A model generated the notes under the pieces. That model ran no database searches and was not told the DNA's origin. It was given only the letters and a program-made list of their open reading frames with translations. Source: Candidatus Sodaliphilus aphodohippi (GTDB lineage: Bacteria; Bacteroidota; Bacteroidia; Bacteroidales; Muribaculaceae). From it: DNA of 33,929 bases. A program made the position numbers and the translations under genes. Numbering within the stretch: the first letter of the stretch is position 1; every line of letters starts with the position of its first letter. This document shows, piece after piece, positions 431 through 11,248 of the stretch. Location: NCBI GenBank assembly GCA_018065665.1, contig JAGHSV010000104.1:1-33929 (forward strand), read 5' to 3'.

Positions 431-449
431 AATAATAATCCTTATTATT
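431..449 (-). terminator. AT-only hairpin at the end of the CoiA-like gene
   Basis: AATAATAA-TCC-TTATTATT is a perfect 8-bp stem with a 3-base loop straddling the TAA stop of the CoiA-like gene (445-447). All pairs are A-T and no clear U-run follows, so termination is only a possibility. Confidence 0.25.
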
Positions 450-1410
450 CCCCCTTCTTCCAAAAGACAAAGTCGCAATCTGCATACTTTCTTTCAATTG
501 CTATGCATTTTCGCTTGTCACGTATATAATAGGGGCAACTTGCTGCCGCAATCCATCCTTTATCTGGTCTATTACAATGTCTGATTAAGCAAAAATAACA
601 ATGTCTGATGTCTTCCCCATGATTTAATGCATGAGCTAAACCAGAAATTAAAGAGTTATTATCGTTAGGTTCTTGACTAATGATGTCATAGACTGCATTC
701 GGCAGATGTTCGTCAAACTGGCAGCAATCAATTTCATCCAGTTTAAGATGTTTCCCTTTATCATCTGACAACAAGCTAAATCTTTCGACTTTTGTAGTAG
801 GACGAATTTTTCGCTCAAATTTAAAATTGAAGAAATGCATGTGCCTATTCTGTTCATCAAAAGGGTGTATGGTGGTTAGTTCACTATCTACATCTATTTC
901 GATAATTCGAATGCCACTATTAATTTTTTCATAAGTGCATGGGTGGTTTACATTGACTTCAATAAATAATTTTCGGTCAGAATGCTCGCTGTGGGTAAGG
1001 AGGACATCTGGTCGGAAACCGCCACACGTCTTTTCAATTTCACAAGTGTCAAAATACTTTTTTAAGTCTATTTTCCGTTGAACATTTTTCTTACACCTTT
1101 TAAAAGGACAAGAATCCAGTTGCTCGCAAACATTGTTAGCATTGTGTTGAATAACGAAATACTCCTGGGTATCAAAGATTTCTTTAATCATTTTCTTTGC
1201 GAGGTTATGTAGATATGTTTCATTGCTACAGTTCTCGCTATTTTTGTGCCTAAAATGGTGCTCACGCACTTGTCCCAGCACGGCTACCATTTCATTTCCA
1301 CAGCCAAGACAAGTATATTTTTCAGATTTACGACACTCTTTAGTTACATTATTTATTTCTTTTACTTGCCCATTGCAAAGAGCGTATCGGAACTGACTTA
1401 ATAACTTCAT
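445..1410 (-). CDS. CoiA-like zinc-ribbon / PD-(D/E)XK nuclease protein
   Basis: A 321-residue protein with the layout of the competence CoiA-like family. An N-terminal zinc ribbon is visible (C34-x2-C37 followed by HHFRH at 51-55). Next comes a restriction-endonuclease-like core with E125, R134-P-D135-V and F-I-E151-V-N153, in which the usual lysine of (D/E)XK is replaced by Asn. A C-terminal cysteine cluster (C271, C274, C279, C292, C302, C312) may bind a second metal. The family is linked to DNA processing in transformation and is also found with mobile DNA; the substrate here is unknown. The ATG overlaps the stop of the upstream XRE gene by four bases (ATGA), so the two are translationally coupled. 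Base composition is much more AT-rich than neighbours (20 G/C in 60 bases at 601-660), which suggests transfer. The family call is fairly firm; the role is open. Confidence 0.7.
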   Translation of the reverse strand: MKLLSQFRYALCNGQVKEINNVTKECRKSEKYTCLGCGNEMVAVLGQVREHHFRHKNSENCSNETYLHNLAKKMIKEIFDTQEYFVIQHNANNVCEQLDSCPFKRCKKNVQRKIDLKKYFDTCEIEKTCGGFRPDVLLTHSEHSDRKLFIEVNVNHPCTYEKINSGIRIIEIDVDSELTTIHPFDEQNRHMHFFNFKFERKIRPTTKVERFSLLSDDKGKHLKLDEIDCCQFDEHLPNAVYDIISQEPNDNNSLISGLAHALNHGEDIRHCYFCLIRHCNRPDKGWIAAASCPYYIRDKRKCIAIERKYADCDFVFWKKGE

Positions 1411-1880
1411 AATTCTGGTTTATTTTGAGGGACAAAATCAATACGCATATTCAATGCACTTGCAATCTTATTGAGTATATCAATACCGACCGAGAACTTT
1501 CCCTGCTCAATACGGCTAAGGTTTCCAGCATCAATGCCAATTCGTTTTGCAAGAGTTTTTGCATCTATATCTTTTTCTTTCCTTAACTCCTTGATACGGT
1601 TTCCGATGCGTTCACGTTCTTTGTCTCTATCCGGCAAAAAACCAAAAATAGGATTAAGGTTATTACGGAACATGCCCAAAAGAATTGGACCCAAGATAAC
1701 ACTGTCATCACCTTTATAATATTCATCAAACAATAAAATCAAACACTTGGTAACAAATCCGTTACACTGCTTCTCTATCTGATAGTTCATTAAGTCAGAG
1801 AACAATAAAATAAAACAATCGCCTTCGGATGTTTCAACACGAACCCTCTTAGGATCAATAAATTCAACTTTTGTAGCCAT
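1407..1880 (-). CDS. XRE-family regulator with unknown N-terminal domain
   Basis: A 157-residue protein. Residues about 92-147 form a Cro/C1-type helix-turn-helix (IGNRIKELRKEK…LAKRIGI…LSRIEQGK). The first 85 residues (MATKVEFIDPKRVRVE…) match nothing I recognise and may be a sensing or dimerisation domain. It is the first gene of a two-gene operon with the CoiA-like nuclease and overlaps it by four bases. A perfect 16-bp palindrome sits at its predicted transcription start, so autoregulation is likely. This resembles the control logic of restriction controller proteins and antitoxins, but nothing in the sequence proves a toxin or restriction function. AT-rich like its partner. Confidence 0.75.
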   Translation of the reverse strand: MATKVEFIDPKRVRVETSEGDCFILLFSDLMNYQIEKQCNGFVTKCLILLFDEYYKGDDSVILGPILLGMFRNNLNPIFGFLPDRDKERERIGNRIKELRKEKDIDAKTLAKRIGIDAGNLSRIEQGKFSVGIDILNKIASALNMRIDFVPQNKPEL

Positions 1881-1899
1881 ATTGTTAAATCGTTTTTAT

Positions 1900-1915
1900 A
1901 GTGGTGAACCCCACT
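1900..1915 (-). promoter_or_regulatory. Hairpin in the XRE leader
   Basis: AGTGG-TGAACC-CCACT (plus-strand reading) is a perfect 5-bp stem with a 6-base loop, ending about 20 bases before the XRE start codon. It may affect translation; evidence is structural only. Confidence 0.3.
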
Positions 1916-1924
1916 TCAAAACAT

Positions 1925-1940
1925 TTGGAAATATTTCCAA
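1925..1940. promoter_or_regulatory. Perfect 16-bp palindrome, probable XRE operator
   Basis: TTGGAAATATTTCCAA equals its own reverse complement. It lies just downstream of the -7 box at 1944-1951 and covers the expected start of transcription (about 1938). This is a classic position for repressor binding and suits an HTH dimer encoded by the next gene. Confidence 0.6.
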
Positions 1941-1943
1941 CTG

Positions 1944-1951
1944 CAAAGTTA
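1944..1951 (-). promoter_or_regulatory. -7 box of the XRE/CoiA-like operon
   Basis: Minus strand TAACTTTG followed by C matches TAnnTTTG exactly. The -33 region offers only TTGG at a spacing of 19, so that half is weak. The leader would be about 58 bases. Confidence 0.55.
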
Positions 1952-2047
1952 TGTAAAATTGTTATATTTACCAATAATAGATTGCAGTATTTAACAATAT
2001 TTATATTCTTGAGTCAAGGACCGGGTGCTGCAGACGAATGTAGGCAT

Positions 2048-2079: not shown

Positions 2080-2144
2080 GAGTGCGTTATAAAGAATAAA
2101 TGGTCATTTTTTTATATTTTTGCAAAAACAAAAATTCACTAATT

Positions 2145-3029
2145 ATGAAGAAACTACTTTTAATGGCCATATTTGGCATCATATCTTTATGCGCTAATGC
2201 CCAGTTGCTGTGGCAGGTTAGCGGGAATGGGCTGGGGAAGCCTTCGTATCTGATGGGGACGCACCATTTTGCGCCGGAGTCGTTCATTGACAGCGTGCGC
2301 GGGTTGAACGAGGCCATCAACTCGTGTGATATAGTTTGCGGCGAGGTTGTCACCGACAGTCTGATGAGTCCCGCCACACAAAAGAAGATGGCGCTGGCAA
2401 TGATAGCCCCCGAGGACAGCACCTTGAAGGACGTGCTCTCGCCTGCCGGCCTGCAGATTGTTGAACGTGTTGTCAACAAGTACCTTGGCATACCGCTGGC
2501 ACCACTGATGAAACTGAAACCGGCGGCACTGACAGCCCAAATCCAGGCCATCCAGGCCATGAACGGCAAGAGCAACATCGACCCCACCAAGCAGATTGAC
2601 CTTGCCGTGCAGAAACGCGCCATCAAAGACGGCAAACCTGTGACCGGTTTTGAGACTGCCGACCAGCAAATCAACATCCTGTTCAACGGTCCGCTTAACG
2701 TGCAGGCCGCCACTCTGCTCGAGTTGTGCGAGAATGACAGCATCGCTGCCGGATTTACCGACCAAATGTTTGAACTATATAACAAGCAAGAACTTGATGC
2801 CCTGTACAAGATGCTCACCGACCCTGATATCGGCGTGAAACCCACCAAGCAGGAACTGGACCTGATGGTATTTGACCGCAACCGCGCATGGGTGCCCCAA
2901 CTCGAGAAGATGATGCACGAGGGCAAGTCGGTTCTCGTCTGCGTCGGTGCCGGACACCTCCCCGGCGACCAAGGTCTCATCGGGTTGCTGCGTACTGCCG
3001 GATACACAGTCACAGCAGTCTCAAAATAA
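2145..3029 (+). CDS. TraB/GumN family protein
   Basis: A 294-residue protein counted from the ATG at 2145. The track's earlier start at 2100 overlaps promoter-like sequence and would bury the signal peptide MKKLLLMAIFGIISLCANA. The N-terminal motif L-M-G-T-H-H (38-41), acidic E67 and the C-terminal GAGHLPG…GLIGLLRTAGY block are hallmarks of the TraB/GumN (PF01963) fold. This family includes Tiki-type metalloproteases that use GxxH and Glu residues. The signal peptide sends it to the envelope. The substrate is not evident. It is transcribed alone or at the head of the following plus-strand genes, although the next gene has its own promoter. The family call is strong; enzymatic activity is inferred. 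Confidence 0.85.
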   Translation: MKKLLLMAIFGIISLCANAQLLWQVSGNGLGKPSYLMGTHHFAPESFIDSVRGLNEAINSCDIVCGEVVTDSLMSPATQKKMALAMIAPEDSTLKDVLSPAGLQIVERVVNKYLGIPLAPLMKLKPAALTAQIQAIQAMNGKSNIDPTKQIDLAVQKRAIKDGKPVTGFETADQQINILFNGPLNVQAATLLELCENDSIAAGFTDQMFELYNKQELDALYKMLTDPDIGVKPTKQELDLMVFDRNRAWVPQLEKMMHEGKSVLVCVGAGHLPGDQGLIGLLRTAGYTVTAVSK

Positions 3030-3044
3030 ATTATCACCCTTAAA

Positions 3045-3076
3045 TTTGGTGAAATAAAAAATTTGCTATACCTTTG
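3045..3076 (+). promoter_or_regulatory. Promoter of cls
   Basis: TTTG (3045-3048), a 20-base spacer and TACCTTTG (3069-3076) match the consensus fully. The predicted start of transcription, about 3081-3083, is only 3-5 bases from the ATG at 3086. A small inverted repeat, TCACC…GGTGA (3034-3052), overlaps the -33 element. Confidence 0.65.
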
Positions 3077-3085
3077 TAAATAGGT

Positions 3086-4531
3086 ATGGTACTTGCTGAA
3101 CTTTTCCCATATGCCCACATCGTGTACGACATCCTGATGGTGCTGTACGTCATCACTATTGTCAGCGTCATCATCATTGTCATTGGCGAGAACCGCAACC
3201 CGCTGAAGTCGCTTGCATGGGTGGCTGTGCTGGTTTTGCTGCCTGTTGCCGGACTGGTATTGTACCTGTTCTTTGGACGAAGCCTGCGTAGCCGGCACCT
3301 CATCCCCCGAAAAGACTGGATGAAACTGGTCCATGCCCACTCGGGCAGCCGCGAGCACATCGAGTCGCTGGTGCCCGACATCTGCTCACAGCACCAGATG
3401 CGTCTTGCCGAGGCCTTGGTCGAAGCACCTTGCTACACAGGCAACAACATTGACATTTACACCGACGGCAAGTCAAAGTTCGAAGCACTGAAACATGACA
3501 TCGAAACTGCACAGGACTACATACTGCTGCAGTACTATATCTTTGAAAACGATGCTATCGGTCATGAAATCAGCAATCTGCTAATCAAGAAAGCCCAACA
3601 GGGGATTCACGTCCACGTGATATATGACCACATCGGGTCATACACGATTAATGCCGCTTTCTTCCATCGCATGAGGCGTGCCGGTGTTGAGGCGTACCCG
3701 TTCCTGAAAGTGACATTCACGACAATCGCAGCGCGTCTCAACTGGCGCAACCACCGCAAGATGGTTGTCATTGACGGCAAAGTGGGCTATATTGGCGGCA
3801 TGAACATTGCCGACCGGTATGTCACAGGCGAAAAAGGCAAACAACCATGGCGCGACACCCACATCCGCATCACAGGCGAGGCTGTCAAGGGGTTATTCTT
3901 CTCGTTTGCAGTCGATTGGGACTTCATGCAGCACAAACTGCTGACAATGCCGCAACAAGAGACCAACACCCCCGCTACCGGCAACAACACAATGCAGATT
4001 GTCGCCAGCGGCCCCACCGACAAGTGGAACGCAATGGCGTTTGTCGTGCAGAAAGCCATATCCATGGCCCGCAAGTCATTGTATATCCAAACACCCTATT
4101 TCCTCCCCAACGATGCCCAGTTAAAAGCATTGCAGGTGGCAGCGTTGTCGGGTGTTGATGTCAGACTGATGATTCCGCGCGACACCGACTCGGTGATTCT
4201 CAAATACGCCACACGCAGTTACCTGAAAGAGTGCCTGCTGGCTGGCATCAAAATTTATTTCTATGAAAGCACCATGATGCACAGCAAGGCCATTATCGTT
4301 GATGACAACTTTGTCACGGTTGGCTCAACGAACTTCGACTTCCGCAGTTTTGAGCACAACTTTGAATGCAATGCTCTGATTTACAACCAAGACTTCAACC
4401 GCCGGATGAAAGAAATCTTTGCCGCCGACCAACGGTGCTGCACACGCATCATTCTGTCGGAATGGAAACGGCGCAACCAATTTGCCAAGGCTTTTGAATC
4501 AATACTGCGACTGCTCGCACCAATACTGTAA
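3086..4531 (+). CDS. cls: Cardiolipin synthase (phospholipase D family)
   Basis: A 481-residue enzyme that joins two phosphatidylglycerol molecules into cardiolipin at the inner membrane. Two N-terminal membrane segments (about 12-33 and 42-63, separated by ENRNP) precede two HKD catalytic motifs: H223-R-K225…D230 (NHRKMVVIDG) and H399-S-K401…D406 (MHSKAIIVDD). Each is followed by the usual G-S/G-x-N stretch. Length is normal for bacterial ClsA-type enzymes. The ATG at 3086 is nearly leaderless given the promoter; the in-frame ATG at 3137 (residue 18) would leave the first membrane helix shortened but usable. It is followed after 51 bases by the beta-lactamase-like gene, probably co-transcribed. 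Confident call. Confidence 0.92.
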   Translation: MVLAELFPYAHIVYDILMVLYVITIVSVIIIVIGENRNPLKSLAWVAVLVLLPVAGLVLYLFFGRSLRSRHLIPRKDWMKLVHAHSGSREHIESLVPDICSQHQMRLAEALVEAPCYTGNNIDIYTDGKSKFEALKHDIETAQDYILLQYYIFENDAIGHEISNLLIKKAQQGIHVHVIYDHIGSYTINAAFFHRMRRAGVEAYPFLKVTFTTIAARLNWRNHRKMVVIDGKVGYIGGMNIADRYVTGEKGKQPWRDTHIRITGEAVKGLFFSFAVDWDFMQHKLLTMPQQETNTPATGNNTMQIVASGPTDKWNAMAFVVQKAISMARKSLYIQTPYFLPNDAQLKALQVAALSGVDVRLMIPRDTDSVILKYATRSYLKECLLAGIKIYFYESTMMHSKAIIVDDNFVTVGSTNFDFRSFEHNFECNALIYNQDFNRRMKEIFAADQRCCTRIILSEWKRRNQFAKAFESILRLLAPIL

Positions 4532-4582: not shown

Positions 4583-6082
4583 ATGAAGAAGATATTTCTA
4601 TTACTTGCCGCCGTTGCTCTGTTGGCAAATGCCCAGACGGGAGAAATCATGCGTTCCACTCCGGCGCAAGAGTCGGTTAACCCACAAGCAGTTGCAACTT
4701 TCTTTGACTCGCTGATGGCCGTCAACGCCACCGACATTCACCATGTGATGGTGCTTCGTCACGACAAAGTTATTGCCGAGCTTCACCCTGCGCCCTACCG
4801 TGCCCAGGACAGCCACACGCTGTACTCGTGCAGCAAGACCTTCACCTCGATGGCTGTGGGTATCGCAATCGACGAGAACCGTCTTCGTCTGACCGACCGT
4901 GTTGCCGCGTTCTTCCCCGAACGGTTGCCCGACACGGTGTCGGCACGGTTGGCCGACATCACCGTGCGCGACCTGCTCATCATGGGTGCCGGCATCAAAC
5001 CAGACTGGATCATGCGCAGCCAGAGTCCCGACTGGATTACCGAGTGGTTTTCAAAACCCGTGACCGAGGCACCCGGCAGCAAGTTCCAGTATGACTCTAT
5101 GTGCTCCTACATACTTGCCGCAATTGTCCAACGCGTGACAGGCAAAACCATGCTGGAGTACCTCAACGAGCATTTATTCGGGCCCATGGGCATCACCGAG
5201 GTGGACTGGGAGCAGAGCCCCGAGGGTGTCAACACCGGCGGATGGGGGTTGCGGTTACAGACCGAGTCGCTTGCCAAGATGGGCATGCTGATGCTGCATC
5301 GCGGCAACTGGAACGGACGCCAACTGGTACCAGCAGCGTGGATTGACGAAGCATCGGCCAGCCACATTAACTACAGTTGGGTAAAACCCGGCGACAAACC
5401 GACCGACAAAAACCAAGGATACGGATACCAAATCTGGCGATGCAACTGGCCCGGAGCATATCGTGCCGACGGTGCCTACGGGCAGTTTATCGTTGTCATC
5501 ACCGAGAGCGACATGGTGGTGGTCATCAACGGTTACAGCGACGACACCAACGGCGAACTGCGCGCCATCTGGCGGCACCTCATGCCCGGAGTGGACAAGA
5601 CTAACTCCAACCCGGGGAAAGCCCAGAAAAAACTCGAGGCATTGTGCAGCAAGGCATCGCTGCCGGTTCTCAAGGGCAAAGACATAAACCCGCTACCCGC
5701 GGGTGCAAAGCTCAAACTGCAGAGCAACAAGCACAACATAGCGACAATCGAGCTTACACCGATGAGCAAATTCAGCACAATGTACATCCACTATGCCGAC
5801 GGCCACAGCGACTGCATTTATCTGGGACATGGCAACTGGATGTACGGCCCCGTTGAACTGCCGCCCTACTCAATCGATGCCGTGGACCGCTTCAAGGGAC
5901 TCAACCGCAACTTCCAGGCTGCCGGATGCCGTGCATGGACCGACAAGAATGTCCTAACGGCACGCATCGAGTATGTCAACTGGATAAGCGCCACCACCTT
6001 TGTGTTTGACTTCAAGGCAAACAAAGTAACCATAACCGACAACTTTGACGCCTCACACCCCGAGGTAATAACCTTCAAATGA
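4583..6082 (+). CDS. Serine beta-lactamase-like hydrolase (class C / PF00144)
   Basis: A 499-residue secreted protein from the ATG at 4583 (the track used a TTG four codons earlier). MKKIFLLLAAVALLANA is a signal peptide. The nucleophile motif is S82-C-S-K85, the second motif is Y170-D-S172, and a GAYGQ block replaces KTG. These belong to the class C beta-lactamase / esterase / D-Ala-D-Ala peptidase-like family, many of which are not lactamases. Residues beyond about 360 form an extra beta-rich C-terminal domain. Its stop overlaps the xerD start by four bases (ATGA). No AmpR-like regulator is nearby, so antibiotic resistance is not implied; an envelope esterase or peptidase role is as likely. 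Confidence 0.85.
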   Translation: MKKIFLLLAAVALLANAQTGEIMRSTPAQESVNPQAVATFFDSLMAVNATDIHHVMVLRHDKVIAELHPAPYRAQDSHTLYSCSKTFTSMAVGIAIDENRLRLTDRVAAFFPERLPDTVSARLADITVRDLLIMGAGIKPDWIMRSQSPDWITEWFSKPVTEAPGSKFQYDSMCSYILAAIVQRVTGKTMLEYLNEHLFGPMGITEVDWEQSPEGVNTGGWGLRLQTESLAKMGMLMLHRGNWNGRQLVPAAWIDEASASHINYSWVKPGDKPTDKNQGYGYQIWRCNWPGAYRADGAYGQFIVVITESDMVVVINGYSDDTNGELRAIWRHLMPGVDKTNSNPGKAQKKLEALCSKASLPVLKGKDINPLPAGAKLKLQSNKHNIATIELTPMSKFSTMYIHYADGHSDCIYLGHGNWMYGPVELPPYSIDAVDRFKGLNRNFQAAGCRAWTDKNVLTARIEYVNWISATTFVFDFKANKVTITDNFDASHPEVITFK

Positions 6083-6990: not shown

Positions 6991-7037
6991 TGCCGTTGCT
7001 AGCACTACACAATCCAGAAACTTGAAAACCCTCCGCG

Positions 7038-9656
7038 TCACTGGTGGCGGCCGGTGAGGATGCCCTTGATGTCGTTGAGTTTGTTGAGCGCCTCGACGGG
7101 TGTGAGGTTGTTGACGTCAATGGTCAGAATCTCGTCGCGAATCTGTGCCAGCACGGGATCGTCGAGTTGGAATATCGACAACTGATAGCCGCTGCGGTCG
7201 TGTGCCACGTCGCTCAGGTCCTTGGTCACACTGCCGGCATCGGCGGCATTGCTTTCCAACTGCTTTAGAACCTGATTGGCGCGTTCGACGATGTCAATCG
7301 GCATGCCCGCGAGTTTTGCCACGTGGATACCGAAACTGTGTTCGCTGCCGCCTTTCACGATCTTGCGCAGGAATACCACTTTGCCGTTGATTTCCTTGAC
7401 ACTGACATTGTAGTTGACAATGCGCTTGAAAGTCTTCTCCATCTCGTTGAGCTCGTGGTAGTGGGTGGCAAAGAGCGTCTTGGCCTGGGCGCGGTGCTCG
7501 TGAATGTACTCAACGATGGACCATGCGATGGAGATGCCGTCATAGGTGCTGGTGCCGCGGCCCAGTTCATCAAACAGCACGAGGCTGCGCTGACTGAGGT
7601 TGTTCAGAATTGAGGACGCCTCGGTCATCTCGACCATAAAGGTACTCTCGCCCTGCGAGATGTTGTCGCTTGCCCCGACGCGTGTGAAAATCTTATCGAC
7701 GATGCCGATTCGTGCAGCCTCGGCCGGCACGAAGCAGCCCATCTGCGCCATCAGGGCAATAAGGGCAGTCTGTCGCAGCAACGCACTCTTACCCGCCATG
7801 TTGGGACCGGTGATAATCATGATTTGCTGGTCGTCGTTGCCGAGGTGGAGACTGTTGGGGACATATTGTTCTCCCGGAGGCAGTTGCCGCTCAATCACCG
7901 GGTGACGTCCGTTGGTGATGTCGATGTCCAGACTGTCGTCAACCACAGGGCGGTTATATTTGCCTTCGATTGCGACACGGGTGAACGAGCACAGGCAGTC
8001 GAGCTGTGCAATGATGCCGCAGTCGGTCTGTATGGCCGGGATATACTCGGTGACGTCCGAGACCAGTTCGTTGAAGAGTTGGGTTTCTATAATCTGGATA
8101 TTCTCCTCGGCGCTCAATATCTTGGTTTCGTATTCCTTCAGTTCGTTGGTGACATAGCGCTCGGCGCTGACCAGTGTCTGTTTCCTGATCCACTCGGGCG
8201 GCACCTTATCCTTGTGGGTGTTACGCACCTCGATATAGTACCCGAAAACGTTGTTGTAGGCAATTTTCAGGTTTGATATGCCGCTCTCCTGGCTAAGGCG
8301 TTGCTGCATCCCGATCAGGTAGTCCTTGTTGGAGTGTGACAGGTTGCGCAGTTCGTCCAGTTTTTCGTTGACCCCCATGTTGATGACATTGCCGCGATTC
8401 AGCTGGTTGGGGGCATCGGGGTTGATTTCACGGTCGATGCGCTCGCTCAGGGTCTTGCATGCGTTAAGTTGCTCACCCAGGGTGTTGAGCACGTCGCAGT
8501 TGGCATCCATTGTCATCTGTTTTATGGGCTCAATTGCCTGCAGTGCGCACTTGAGCTGAACTATCTCGCGTGGCGTGATACGCCCCACGGCGGCCTTGCT
8601 GGTCAGTCGTTCGACATCTCCCATAACCTCGAGGTGCTCTTTCAGCAGGTCGCGGTCCTCGGGGTGACGCATGAAGTGCTCGACGGCGTCGAGTCGTCGG
8701 TTAATGGCCTTGACATCCTTGATGGGGAACATAATCCAGCGATGCATCATGCGCGCGCCCATTGGCGAGAGGGTACGGTCAACTACATTAAGCAGCGACT
8801 TGCCGTCCTCGCACAGCGGTGTCACCAGTTCAAGATTGCGTATCGTGAACTTGTCAAGGCGCACAAACCGGTCGGCATCCAGTCGCGACAGCGTGGTGAT
8901 GTGCTTGACCTGGGTGTGCTGGGTGATGTCCAGGTAGTGCATGATGGCTCCGGCAGCAATGATTGCCTCCTCCATCGGGCCGATGCCGAATCCTTTCAGA
9001 CTCTTTGTCTCAAAGTGCTTCAAAAGCCTGTCAACGGCAGTCTCGCTGGTGAACACCCACTCGTCCATCTCATAGGTCAGGTAGTGGGTGGTTACCGAGT
9101 CGGCAAAGCGAGTGCGGTTGCTGCGCTCGATGAGCACCTCCTTGGGTTGGAAGTTGCCGAGCAGTTTATCGACATACTCGGCATTGCCCTCGGCCACCAT
9201 AAACTCGCCGGTGCTGATGTCAAGCAGTGCCAGTCCCTCTTTTTTCTTGCCGAAGTGCACCGCTGCCAGGAAGTTGTTCTCCTTGCGGTCGAGAATGCTG
9301 CCGCCAACAACGACGCCCGGTGTCACCAGTTCGGTGATGCCTCGCTTGACGAGTTTTTTGGTCAGTTTTGGGTCTTCAAGCTGGTCGCAGATGGCCACGC
9401 GCTTGCCGGCACGCACCAGTTTGGGCAGATAGGTATCGAGTGCGTGGTGAGGGAATCCCGCCATCTCGGTTGCCGCCGCTGCACCGTTGCTGCGGCGCGT
9501 GAGGGTGATGCCCAGTACCTCAGACGCTGTTATGGCGTCTTGAAGATATGTTTCGTAGAAGTCGCCCACGCGAAACAGCAGTATGGCATCGGGATGTTTC
9601 TCCTTCATTGCCATGAACTGTTTCATCATTGGGGTTTCGAGCGCGTTTTTTGCCAT
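7038..9656 (-). CDS. mutS: DNA mismatch repair protein MutS
   Basis: An 872-residue full-length MutS1. The mismatch-reading motif F33-Y34-E35 (GDFYE) is intact. The connector, lever and clamp regions follow, then the ABC ATPase with Walker A G617-PNMAGKS-624 and Walker B LVLFDE (D696-E697) followed by [10 protein letters not shown]. With MutL it starts mismatch repair in the cytoplasm. All key residues are present, so there is no sign of a mutator allele. It has its own promoter at 9678-9709, 68 bases after the MBOAT gene on the same strand, so read-through from the acetylation pair is possible. Confidence 0.96.
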
Positions 9657-9677
9657 CTTGTTGTTGGTTTGTTATTG

Positions 9678-9709
9678 CAAAATTACAAATTTTCTGGTGA
9701 AACACCAAA
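9678..9709 (-). promoter_or_regulatory. Promoter of mutS
   Basis: On the minus strand, TTTG (9709-9706), a 20-base spacer and TAATTTTG then C (9685-9677) match the Bacteroidetes consensus fully. Transcription would start about 15 bases before the ATG at 9656. Confidence 0.65.
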
Positions 9710-9724
9710 AAACAGCATAACCGT

Positions 9725-11248
9725 TTAGAACTGGAAGTAAATGAACGGCTGCACGTCGCTGGTCTTCACCTGTGCGATGATAAAAACCATTGCTATCAGC
9801 ACCAGCACATAAACGATGGCCGGCATCTTGACAAAAGCCCGCTTGCATCGGGTTTCCCACTTGGCGGGGACAAAGTGCAGCGCATAGCCCAGCACAATCA
9901 TCGCCATCACGCTGCCATAGCCGGTGATGAGTTGCCCAAGCAACTCGGGGTGGAAATTGGTGAAAATCTGGGTCAGCATCTTGACCGAACCGTCAAACTC
10001 ACGGTTGCGGAAGAAAATCCAACACAGGCAGACAAAGTTAAAAGTGATGAAAACGCTCAGCGCATGCAGCCACTTGCCGGTTTGCCCCGAGGTTTTACTG
10101 CCCGTGAGCGACATCCACATCTTGTGCAGTGCCAGTGCCACGCCGTGCAGGCCGCCCCACGCCACAAAGTTCCACGACGCCCCGTGCCACAGGCCACCCA
10201 ACAGCATGGTGATGAGCAAATTGAGGTACTGACGCAATTTCCCCTTTCGGTTGCCGCCCAGCGATATATACAGGTAGTCGCGCAACCACGTCGAGAGCGA
10301 GATGTGCCAGTGGCGCCAGAACTCGGTGATTGAAGCGCTCTTGTATGGACTGTTGAAGTTAATATTGAAATGGAAACCCAACAGCAGCGCGATGCCGATT
10401 GCCATGTCGCTGTAACCCGAGAAGTCGCAGTAAATCTGCAATGCATAACCATATACGCCCACAAGGTTCTCGAGTCCGCTGTATAAAGTGGGGTTGTCAA
10501 AAATGCGTTCAACAAAGTTGACGCTGATAAAGTCACTGATAACTGCTTTCTTGAACAGACCGCACACTATCAGCCATATACCCATGCCAACCATGTTGCG
10601 TGTGACGTGCAACGGTCGGCGTATCTGAGGTATGAAATCGCTGGCACGGACAATGGGGCCTGCCACCAGCTGGGGGAAGAACGACACGTAGAACGCATAG
10701 TCAAGCAGACTGTCCAAGGGCTTGATGCGCCGGCGATAAACATCAATGGTGTAACTGAGCGACTGGAACGTGAAGAACGAAATGCCGACGGGGAGGAAGA
10801 TGTTCAGGTCGGTGAACGTGCCTCCGGTGAGACCGGCAAAGGCGTGACCCAGGAAATTAGTGTATTTGAACCACCCCAGCAAACCGAGGTCTATGATAAG
10901 ACTCAGTGCCACCAACCACTTGCGCCGCGCTTTGCTGCCGTCACCACCAATGCCTCGGGCAATCAAGAAGTCGCTGACGGTGACAACGGCAAGCAAGAAG
11001 AAATAGAAGCCGCTTGACTTGTAATAGAAGTAGTAACTGAAGGCTGTCACAAACAGCAGGCGTGCCGTGAGGTTGCGGTGCAGGAAGGCATAGACGACAA
11101 TGAAACCGGCAAACAGCCAAAGGAAGATGCCGCTGCTGAAAATCATCGGGGCATTGCTGTCATAGGTCAACAGCGACACAATGATGTTCCAGTCCAAATT
11201 GCGCCACCCGCTGGCAAGCATATCCAGTATCTTATCCATGCCCATCAT
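9725..11248 (-). CDS. MBOAT family O-acyltransferase (AlgI/PatA-like)
   Basis: A 507-residue polytopic membrane protein with the MBOAT signature: WRHWHISLSTWLRDYLY (about 311-327) and the catalytic histidine H355 in GGLWHGASWNF, which corresponds to AlgI His322. Such proteins move acetyl groups across the inner membrane for alginate, peptidoglycan or other polymer O-acetylation. The start overlaps the stop of the SGNH gene by four bases (ATGA), so the two are made together as the usual transporter/transferase pair. No alginate or cellulose synthase genes are nearby, so the acceptor polymer is not identified. Met1 and Met2 (and Met4) are all possible starts; Met1 gives the overlap. Confidence 0.88.
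   Translation of the reverse strand: MMGMDKILDMLASGWRNLDWNIIVSLLTYDSNAPMIFSSGIFLWLFAGFIVVYAFLHRNLTARLLFVTAFSYYFYYKSSGFYFFLLAVVTVSDFLIARGIGGDGSKARRKWLVALSLIIDLGLLGWFKYTNFLGHAFAGLTGGTFTDLNIFLPVGISFFTFQSLSYTIDVYRRRIKPLDSLLDYAFYVSFFPQLVAGPIVRASDFIPQIRRPLHVTRNMVGMGIWLIVCGLFKKAVISDFISVNFVERIFDNPTLYSGLENLVGVYGYALQIYCDFSGYSDMAIGIALLLGFHFNINFNSPYKSASITEFWRHWHISLSTWLRDYLYISLGGNRKGKLRQYLNLLITMLLGGLWHGASWNFVAWGGLHGVALALHKMWMSLTGSKTSGQTGKWLHALSVFITFNFVCLCWIFFRNREFDGSVKMLTQIFTNFHPELLGQLITGYGSVMAMIVLGYALHFVPAKWETRCKRAFVKMPAIVYVLVLIAMVFIIAQVKTSDVQPFIYFQF

Follow-up and report, generated by a model that had tools for sequence, protein, structure and literature searches.

The pair of overlapping genes near one end of the DNA analysed here (33,929 bp, referred to throughout as the window) raises the question of how bacteria can safely carry, and spread among themselves, a nuclease that has no protective methylase. 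The window corresponds to contig C227 in a 2.49-Mb draft genome of 251 contigs. An earlier examination of this DNA, made without database searches (the sequence-only reading), had described an XRE-type regulator gene overlapping a CoiA-like nuclease gene by ATGA, within DNA of deviant composition. Both minus-strand open reading frames are present and share bases 1407-1410, and the GC content of the patch was found to be 35.4% (positions 445-2000) as against 53.9% for positions 2100-33929, the next-lowest 1.56-kb stretch anywhere in the window having a GC content of 45.6%. The two genes and the motifs of the nuclease are located as follows.

445-1410, minus strand: CoiA-like predicted PD-(D/E)xK nuclease, 321 aa (PF25164 above cut-off)
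535-600, minus strand: C-terminal cysteine cluster of the nuclease, C271, C274 and C292 (invariant in 20 relatives)
958-1014, minus strand: predicted nuclease core, R133 to E151 (translation and column conservation)
1246-1311, minus strand: N-terminal CxxC...HxxH zinc ribbon of the nuclease, C34-H55 (translation, PF25164 and column conservation)
1407-1410, minus strand: ATGA stop/start overlap joining the XRE and nuclease genes (read from the sequence)
1407-1880, minus strand: XRE-type controller, 157 aa (open reading frame translation; N-terminal beta/alpha domain and C-terminal HTH, residues 92-148)

The dispersed repeat that had been reported beside the pair is real, being located at 130-265 with approximately 30 copies in the genome, mostly 77-92% identical, but it lies outside the conserved cassette described below and is unrelated to it. 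Bases 1-100 of the window, which are identical to parts of six other contigs, mostly at contig ends, likewise lie outside the conserved cassette; the contig breaks at this multicopy sequence.

An AlphaFold model of the XRE protein was obtained with a mean pLDDT of 90.9, and Foldseek comparisons of its HTH domain returned C.BclI and C.AhdI as the best matches, in support of the original likening of the regulator to restriction-modification controllers, with HipB also close. The N-terminal half had no good match among solved structures in the same type of search. PADLOC matches to the XRE spanned the HTH only, and the system as a whole was unmatched by any of the PADLOC defence models.

The nuclease matched PF25164 (CoiA_N) across residues 23-62 with a score of 28.9 bits (cut-off 26.3), and no match to PF06054 (CoiA_nuc) was found either in the nuclease or anywhere in the source genome. 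An alignment of 20 sequences revealed that C34, C37, H52, H55, E64, K72, D135, C271, C274 and C292 are invariant, that E151, H156 and K162 each fail in one sequence, and that E126 is also among the conserved residues. All of the motifs picked out in the sequence-only reading, namely the ribbon, the D135/E151 core and the C-terminal cysteines, are present. Position 153 is variable, being N in the window nuclease (E-x-N) and K in 7 of the 20 sequences; PD-(D/E)xK enzymes carry K or Q at the equivalent position. Structure prediction, which had been proposed as a check on the nuclease core, yielded a model with a mean pLDDT of 84.4, but Foldseek comparison of that model with the PDB returned only weak matches, including SfsA and EcoRV, none of which was significant. 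These weak matches nonetheless agree with the published assignment of CoiA and SfsA to the PD-(D/E)xK enzymes, in which CoiA was classed as PD-EXQ (PMC1189080). The window subfamily resembles the CoiA family (PF25164, PF06054) in its CxxC...HxxH ribbon and predicted PD-(D/E)xK core, and differs from it in having no PF06054 match, in carrying E-x-N/K/Y/H instead of E-x-Q, in its extra C-terminal cysteine cluster, and in being accessory and paired with a putative repressor. The window nuclease was matched by none of the PADLOC defence models, by no phage record, and by no entry of IMG/VR when a single-sequence query was used.

The XRE alignment was utilized to search a family sample of 297 genomes, in which 27 full-length XRE relatives were found. 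The next gene was CoiA-like in 11 instances and encoded an HNH_3 protein in 10, the others being an HNH-like motif protein (L167), a possible PD-(D/E)xK protein (L160) and a 232-aa protein, found once each, and three further genes. A Bacteroidota-wide scan with one genome per species, which shares genomes with the family sample and is not independent of it, returned 80 XRE loci, all within Bacteroidota. Here the partners were HNH_3 (31 loci), CoiA-like (23 loci), the L160 or third type (4 loci) and HNH-like (1 locus), with 21 loci having another partner or none directly downstream. It is from motifs only, and weakly, that the third partner type and likewise the L167/L244 enzyme can be identified as possible nucleases, and for the partner proteins of 232-256 aa the indication of a nuclease is weak or absent. 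In three of the 21 loci (L201, L202 and L203) the nuclease is encoded on the opposite flank of the XRE gene and is divergently transcribed: L202 has an HNH gene followed by a CoiA-like gene, whilst L201 (4570-5649) and L203 (4723-5784) encode a CoiA-like N-terminal domain, its ribbon cysteines lost, fused to the C-terminal domain found in the HNH_3 partners. At loci other than that of the window, the distance between XRE and partner was mostly about -47 to +15 bp.

A minimum of 12 switches between partner types is required by the XRE tree, the well-supported branches of which alone force at least seven changes each for HNH_3 and CoiA. The XREs nearest to that of the window (70-75% identical) precede both HNH_3 genes (L190 and L191) and a CoiA-like gene (L193), and DNA similarity between the window and L190 is restricted to 1424-2002, a region comprising the control region and most of the XRE gene. 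In another instance, L223 and L222 encode XREs that are 95% identical, and their DNA is 88.6% alike up to a boundary located exactly at the XRE stop codon, beyond which the partner genes are unrelated, that of L223 being CoiA-like and that of L222 being of the third type; profile comparison found no relation between these two partner types. The constant part of the cassette is the XRE gene with about 120 bp of control DNA, and the nuclease is exchangeable. The tight pairing of XRE and CoiA-like genes that had been proposed does recur (11 of the 27 XREs), but it represents a single form of a broader module, and about 15 of the 26 CoiA-like genes in the family sample are without an XRE. A further apparent exchange of partners, at the ruvB site (L219 and L244), was dropped as evidence because the contig of L244 seems to end in the first part of a CoiA-like gene that lies behind an HNH-like one, such that insertion or loss may explain the difference.

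The upstream regions of 79 XRE loci were scanned for motifs, with shuffled regions as a control. A candidate operator of the form ATTG-N10-CAAT was present in 68 of the 79 regions, in most cases close to position -92 relative to the XRE start (0.8% when shuffled), and a GTGG...CAC leader in 55, mostly at -35 (0.4% when shuffled). Tandem ATTG-N10-CAAT sites were found in 15 regions, with 11 of the pairs exactly 23 bp apart (0.05% when shuffled). The corresponding features of the window are listed below.

1424-2002, minus strand: portable control unit (73.7% DNA identity to L190, which has an HNH partner, and 72.1% to L193, ending here)
1891-1914, minus strand: leader element GTGGGGTTCACCAC, then AAAAACG (GTGG...CAC form)
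1925-1940, minus strand: 16-bp perfect palindrome TTGGAAATATTTCCAA, a probable hairpin at the transcript start
1944-1951, minus strand: presumed Bacteroidota-type -7 box TAACTTTG (consensus fit; aligned with relatives)
1958-1975, minus strand: promoter-proximal putative operator ATTGGTAAATATAACAAT (ATTG-N10-CAAT)
1981-1998, minus strand: distal putative operator ATTGTTAAATACTGCAAT, 23 bp from the proximal site (tandem ATTG-N10-CAAT)

We take TAACTTTG to be the -7 box by its fit to the TAnnTTTG consensus. At most loci, a TTTG within the operator falls at the position expected of the -33 box in the Bacteroidota promoter consensus (spacing read from the sequence), and a site so placed would fit repression by occlusion. 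The perfect palindrome, which had originally been placed at the promoter, is real; it lies 3' of the -7 box, however, and was for this reason assigned to the 5' leader and not to an operator. Its counterparts in L171, L172 and L173 are palindromic with differing letters, and the retention of symmetry despite these changes suggests that a hairpin is formed. The evidence of pairing within the leader is partial, with 36 of 53 sequences able to pair at the position adjoining GTG...CAC, and the element may act either as RNA or as DNA. Rfam searches with the leader returned sub-threshold matches only, to DUF805 RNA (14.2 bits relative to a gathering threshold of 51.1) and Pistol. Orphan CoiA-like genes have neither the operator nor the leader, indicating that the control region travels with the XRE.

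A search for the combined operator and leader pattern in 693 genomes gave seven matches, and none when the pattern was reversed. Five of these were known modules and one was situated at a contig end, whilst the last, L300, was found by the pattern alone and comprised an XRE new to the set with an HNH_2 enzyme encoded directly behind it. The HNH region of the latter matched PDB 6yex, which we take to be the structure of VcaM4I, and a match to a phosphorothioate-DNA restriction family fell below the cut-off. The L300 enzyme is in these respects akin to the type IV methylase-free HNH enzymes, exemplified by VcaM4I (PMC7897488), though these differ in being single enzymes.

We consider that the locus probably represents a mobile, repressor-held, methylase-free and restriction-like cassette of the Bacteroidota, with exchangeable predicted DNA-cutting enzymes. 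The conserved unit consists of the XRE and the nuclease only, as the sequence-only reading had supposed in comparing the pair to a controller with a restriction enzyme; a methyltransferase is absent from it, and none was recognised by eye among the neighbouring open reading frames listed for related loci. An XRE dimer would bind the ATTG-N10-CAAT sites overlapping the -33 region and hold its own operon down, with tandem sites allowing cooperative control as with the C proteins of restriction-modification systems. Further control may be exerted through the leader element near the start codon, and the start-stop overlap would couple the output of the nuclease to that of the XRE. A nuclease without a partner methylase would in this way be kept low by repression and, should some trigger cause expression to rise, would most likely attack incoming or modified DNA.

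The C proteins C.AhdI, C.BclI and C.Esp1396I provide the closest likeness to this arrangement, sharing with it the HTH fold, a controller gene directly 5' of the endonuclease gene with a short overlap, and tandem palindromic operators over the promoter, those of the window being predicted sites with a 23-bp spacing. The cassette differs from the C-protein systems in being without a methyltransferase, in the extra N-terminal domain of ~85 residues carried by the XRE, in its conserved 5' leader, and in that one XRE family serves unrelated endonuclease types. By analogy, a role in defence may be suspected from this resemblance, from the partner enzyme in L300, and from the report of a CoiA-domain protein among 21 anti-phage systems that were discovered by experiment in E. 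coli (PMC9519451).

Some of the same features would also be expected of a type II toxin-antitoxin system, in which an XRE antitoxin would bind and neutralise the nuclease toxin in addition to repressing the operon. The XRE gene comes first and overlaps the next, the promoter looks autoregulatory and the XRE fold is also near HipB, all of which recall toxin-antitoxin systems with XRE antitoxins (HipB and HigA); partner exchange is common among such systems and fits equally. However, 95% identical XREs precede unrelated large nucleases in L223 and L222, so that several folds would need to be neutralised by the same conserved surface, and at ~320-370 aa these nucleases exceed the size expected of such toxins. 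An intact control region, moreover, accompanies some XREs that have no nuclease. A toxin-antitoxin function is hence considered unlikely.

The restriction-like cassette that we favour instead is located in unrelated sites. Relatives of the nuclease were identified in 25 of the 297 family genomes, across 12 of 30 genera and beside differing genes, which bears out the earlier view of the locus as accessory and mobile rather than a core competence locus. Its presence also varies among close relatives, a point that the sequence-only reading had proposed to check: the right-hand neighbours in the window (2100-4531) were matched in 96 of 101 genus genomes, while within the family sample just three further genomes of the genus have the nuclease, on contigs other than those of the neighbours. 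Modules with 60-92% identical nucleases have mostly unshared flanking genes, and the genes flanking the cassettes mostly look like ordinary chromosomal genes. Between L245 (Segatella baroniae) and L239 (a Muribaculaceae MAG), DNA identity of 85.8% extends over 1750 bp, from 132 bp before the XRE to the nuclease stop, with no detectable similarity outside. A plasmid of Chryseobacterium oryzae also bears an XRE-HNH cassette. At the ruvB site, most genomes of the window's genus have kept the DNA on the ruvB side, and in the examined genomes that lack the cassette the similarity breaks off ahead of it. In L219, the cassette is flanked by an 81-bp perfect direct repeat originating from the 5' end of ruvB (4747-4827 and 7026-7106); flanking direct repeats were present in only 4 of ~57 loci and are not general.

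The minimal unit with its sharp edges, the few loci with flanking direct repeats such as that of L219, and the matches of HNH_3 partners to PADLOC homing-endonuclease models would suit a selfish mobile element, the nuclease of which cuts cassette-free DNA to spread the cassette in the manner of a homing endonuclease. Homing, however, expects a fixed target site, and close relatives do not have the cassette inserted at a common place, since even modules with 60-92% nuclease identity mostly lie beside unrelated genes; in view of this and of the scarcity of direct repeats, such an element seems decidedly improbable. Least credible of all is a locally controlled CoiA competence factor, serving DNA uptake or recombination, given that, despite its above-cut-off CoiA_N domain, the nuclease is found in a minority of relatives at varying sites, that HNH enzymes occupy the same place, and that the source genome has no PF06054 match.

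More tentatively, the repressor-held cassette could be one member of a phylum-wide class that combines, through recombination, a universal XRE control unit (operators and 5' leader) with unrelated methylase-free nucleases, and in which resident repressors could silence newcomers sharing their operator. No published description of this layout was found in searches of open-access literature. If the class is real, the question of safe carriage and spread would have a general answer, in that one repressor with its control region serves several unrelated nucleases, and the operator and leader would offer a sequence handle for new nuclease systems without knowledge of the nuclease, as was the case for L300.

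Several other gene arrangements were encountered. Five loci (L225, L235, L240, L213 and L215) encode an XRE with intact operator and leader and no recognised nuclease behind it, and in L033, L034, L036 and L189 a small lipoprotein-like gene lies 5' of CoiA-like genes without an XRE. CoiA-like matches occurred in 793 plasmid records. An Acinetobacter plasmid (L027, 4685-9014) carries consecutive HNH, methyltransferase, HNH and CoiA-like genes. On conjugative plasmids of enterobacteria (L026, L028 and L029, around 7977-10999; the three examined are IncC, IncHI2 and IncFIB/IncFII), the CoiA-like gene and a UvrD-type helicase gene overlap, the closest PADLOC models for the helicase being those of GajB.
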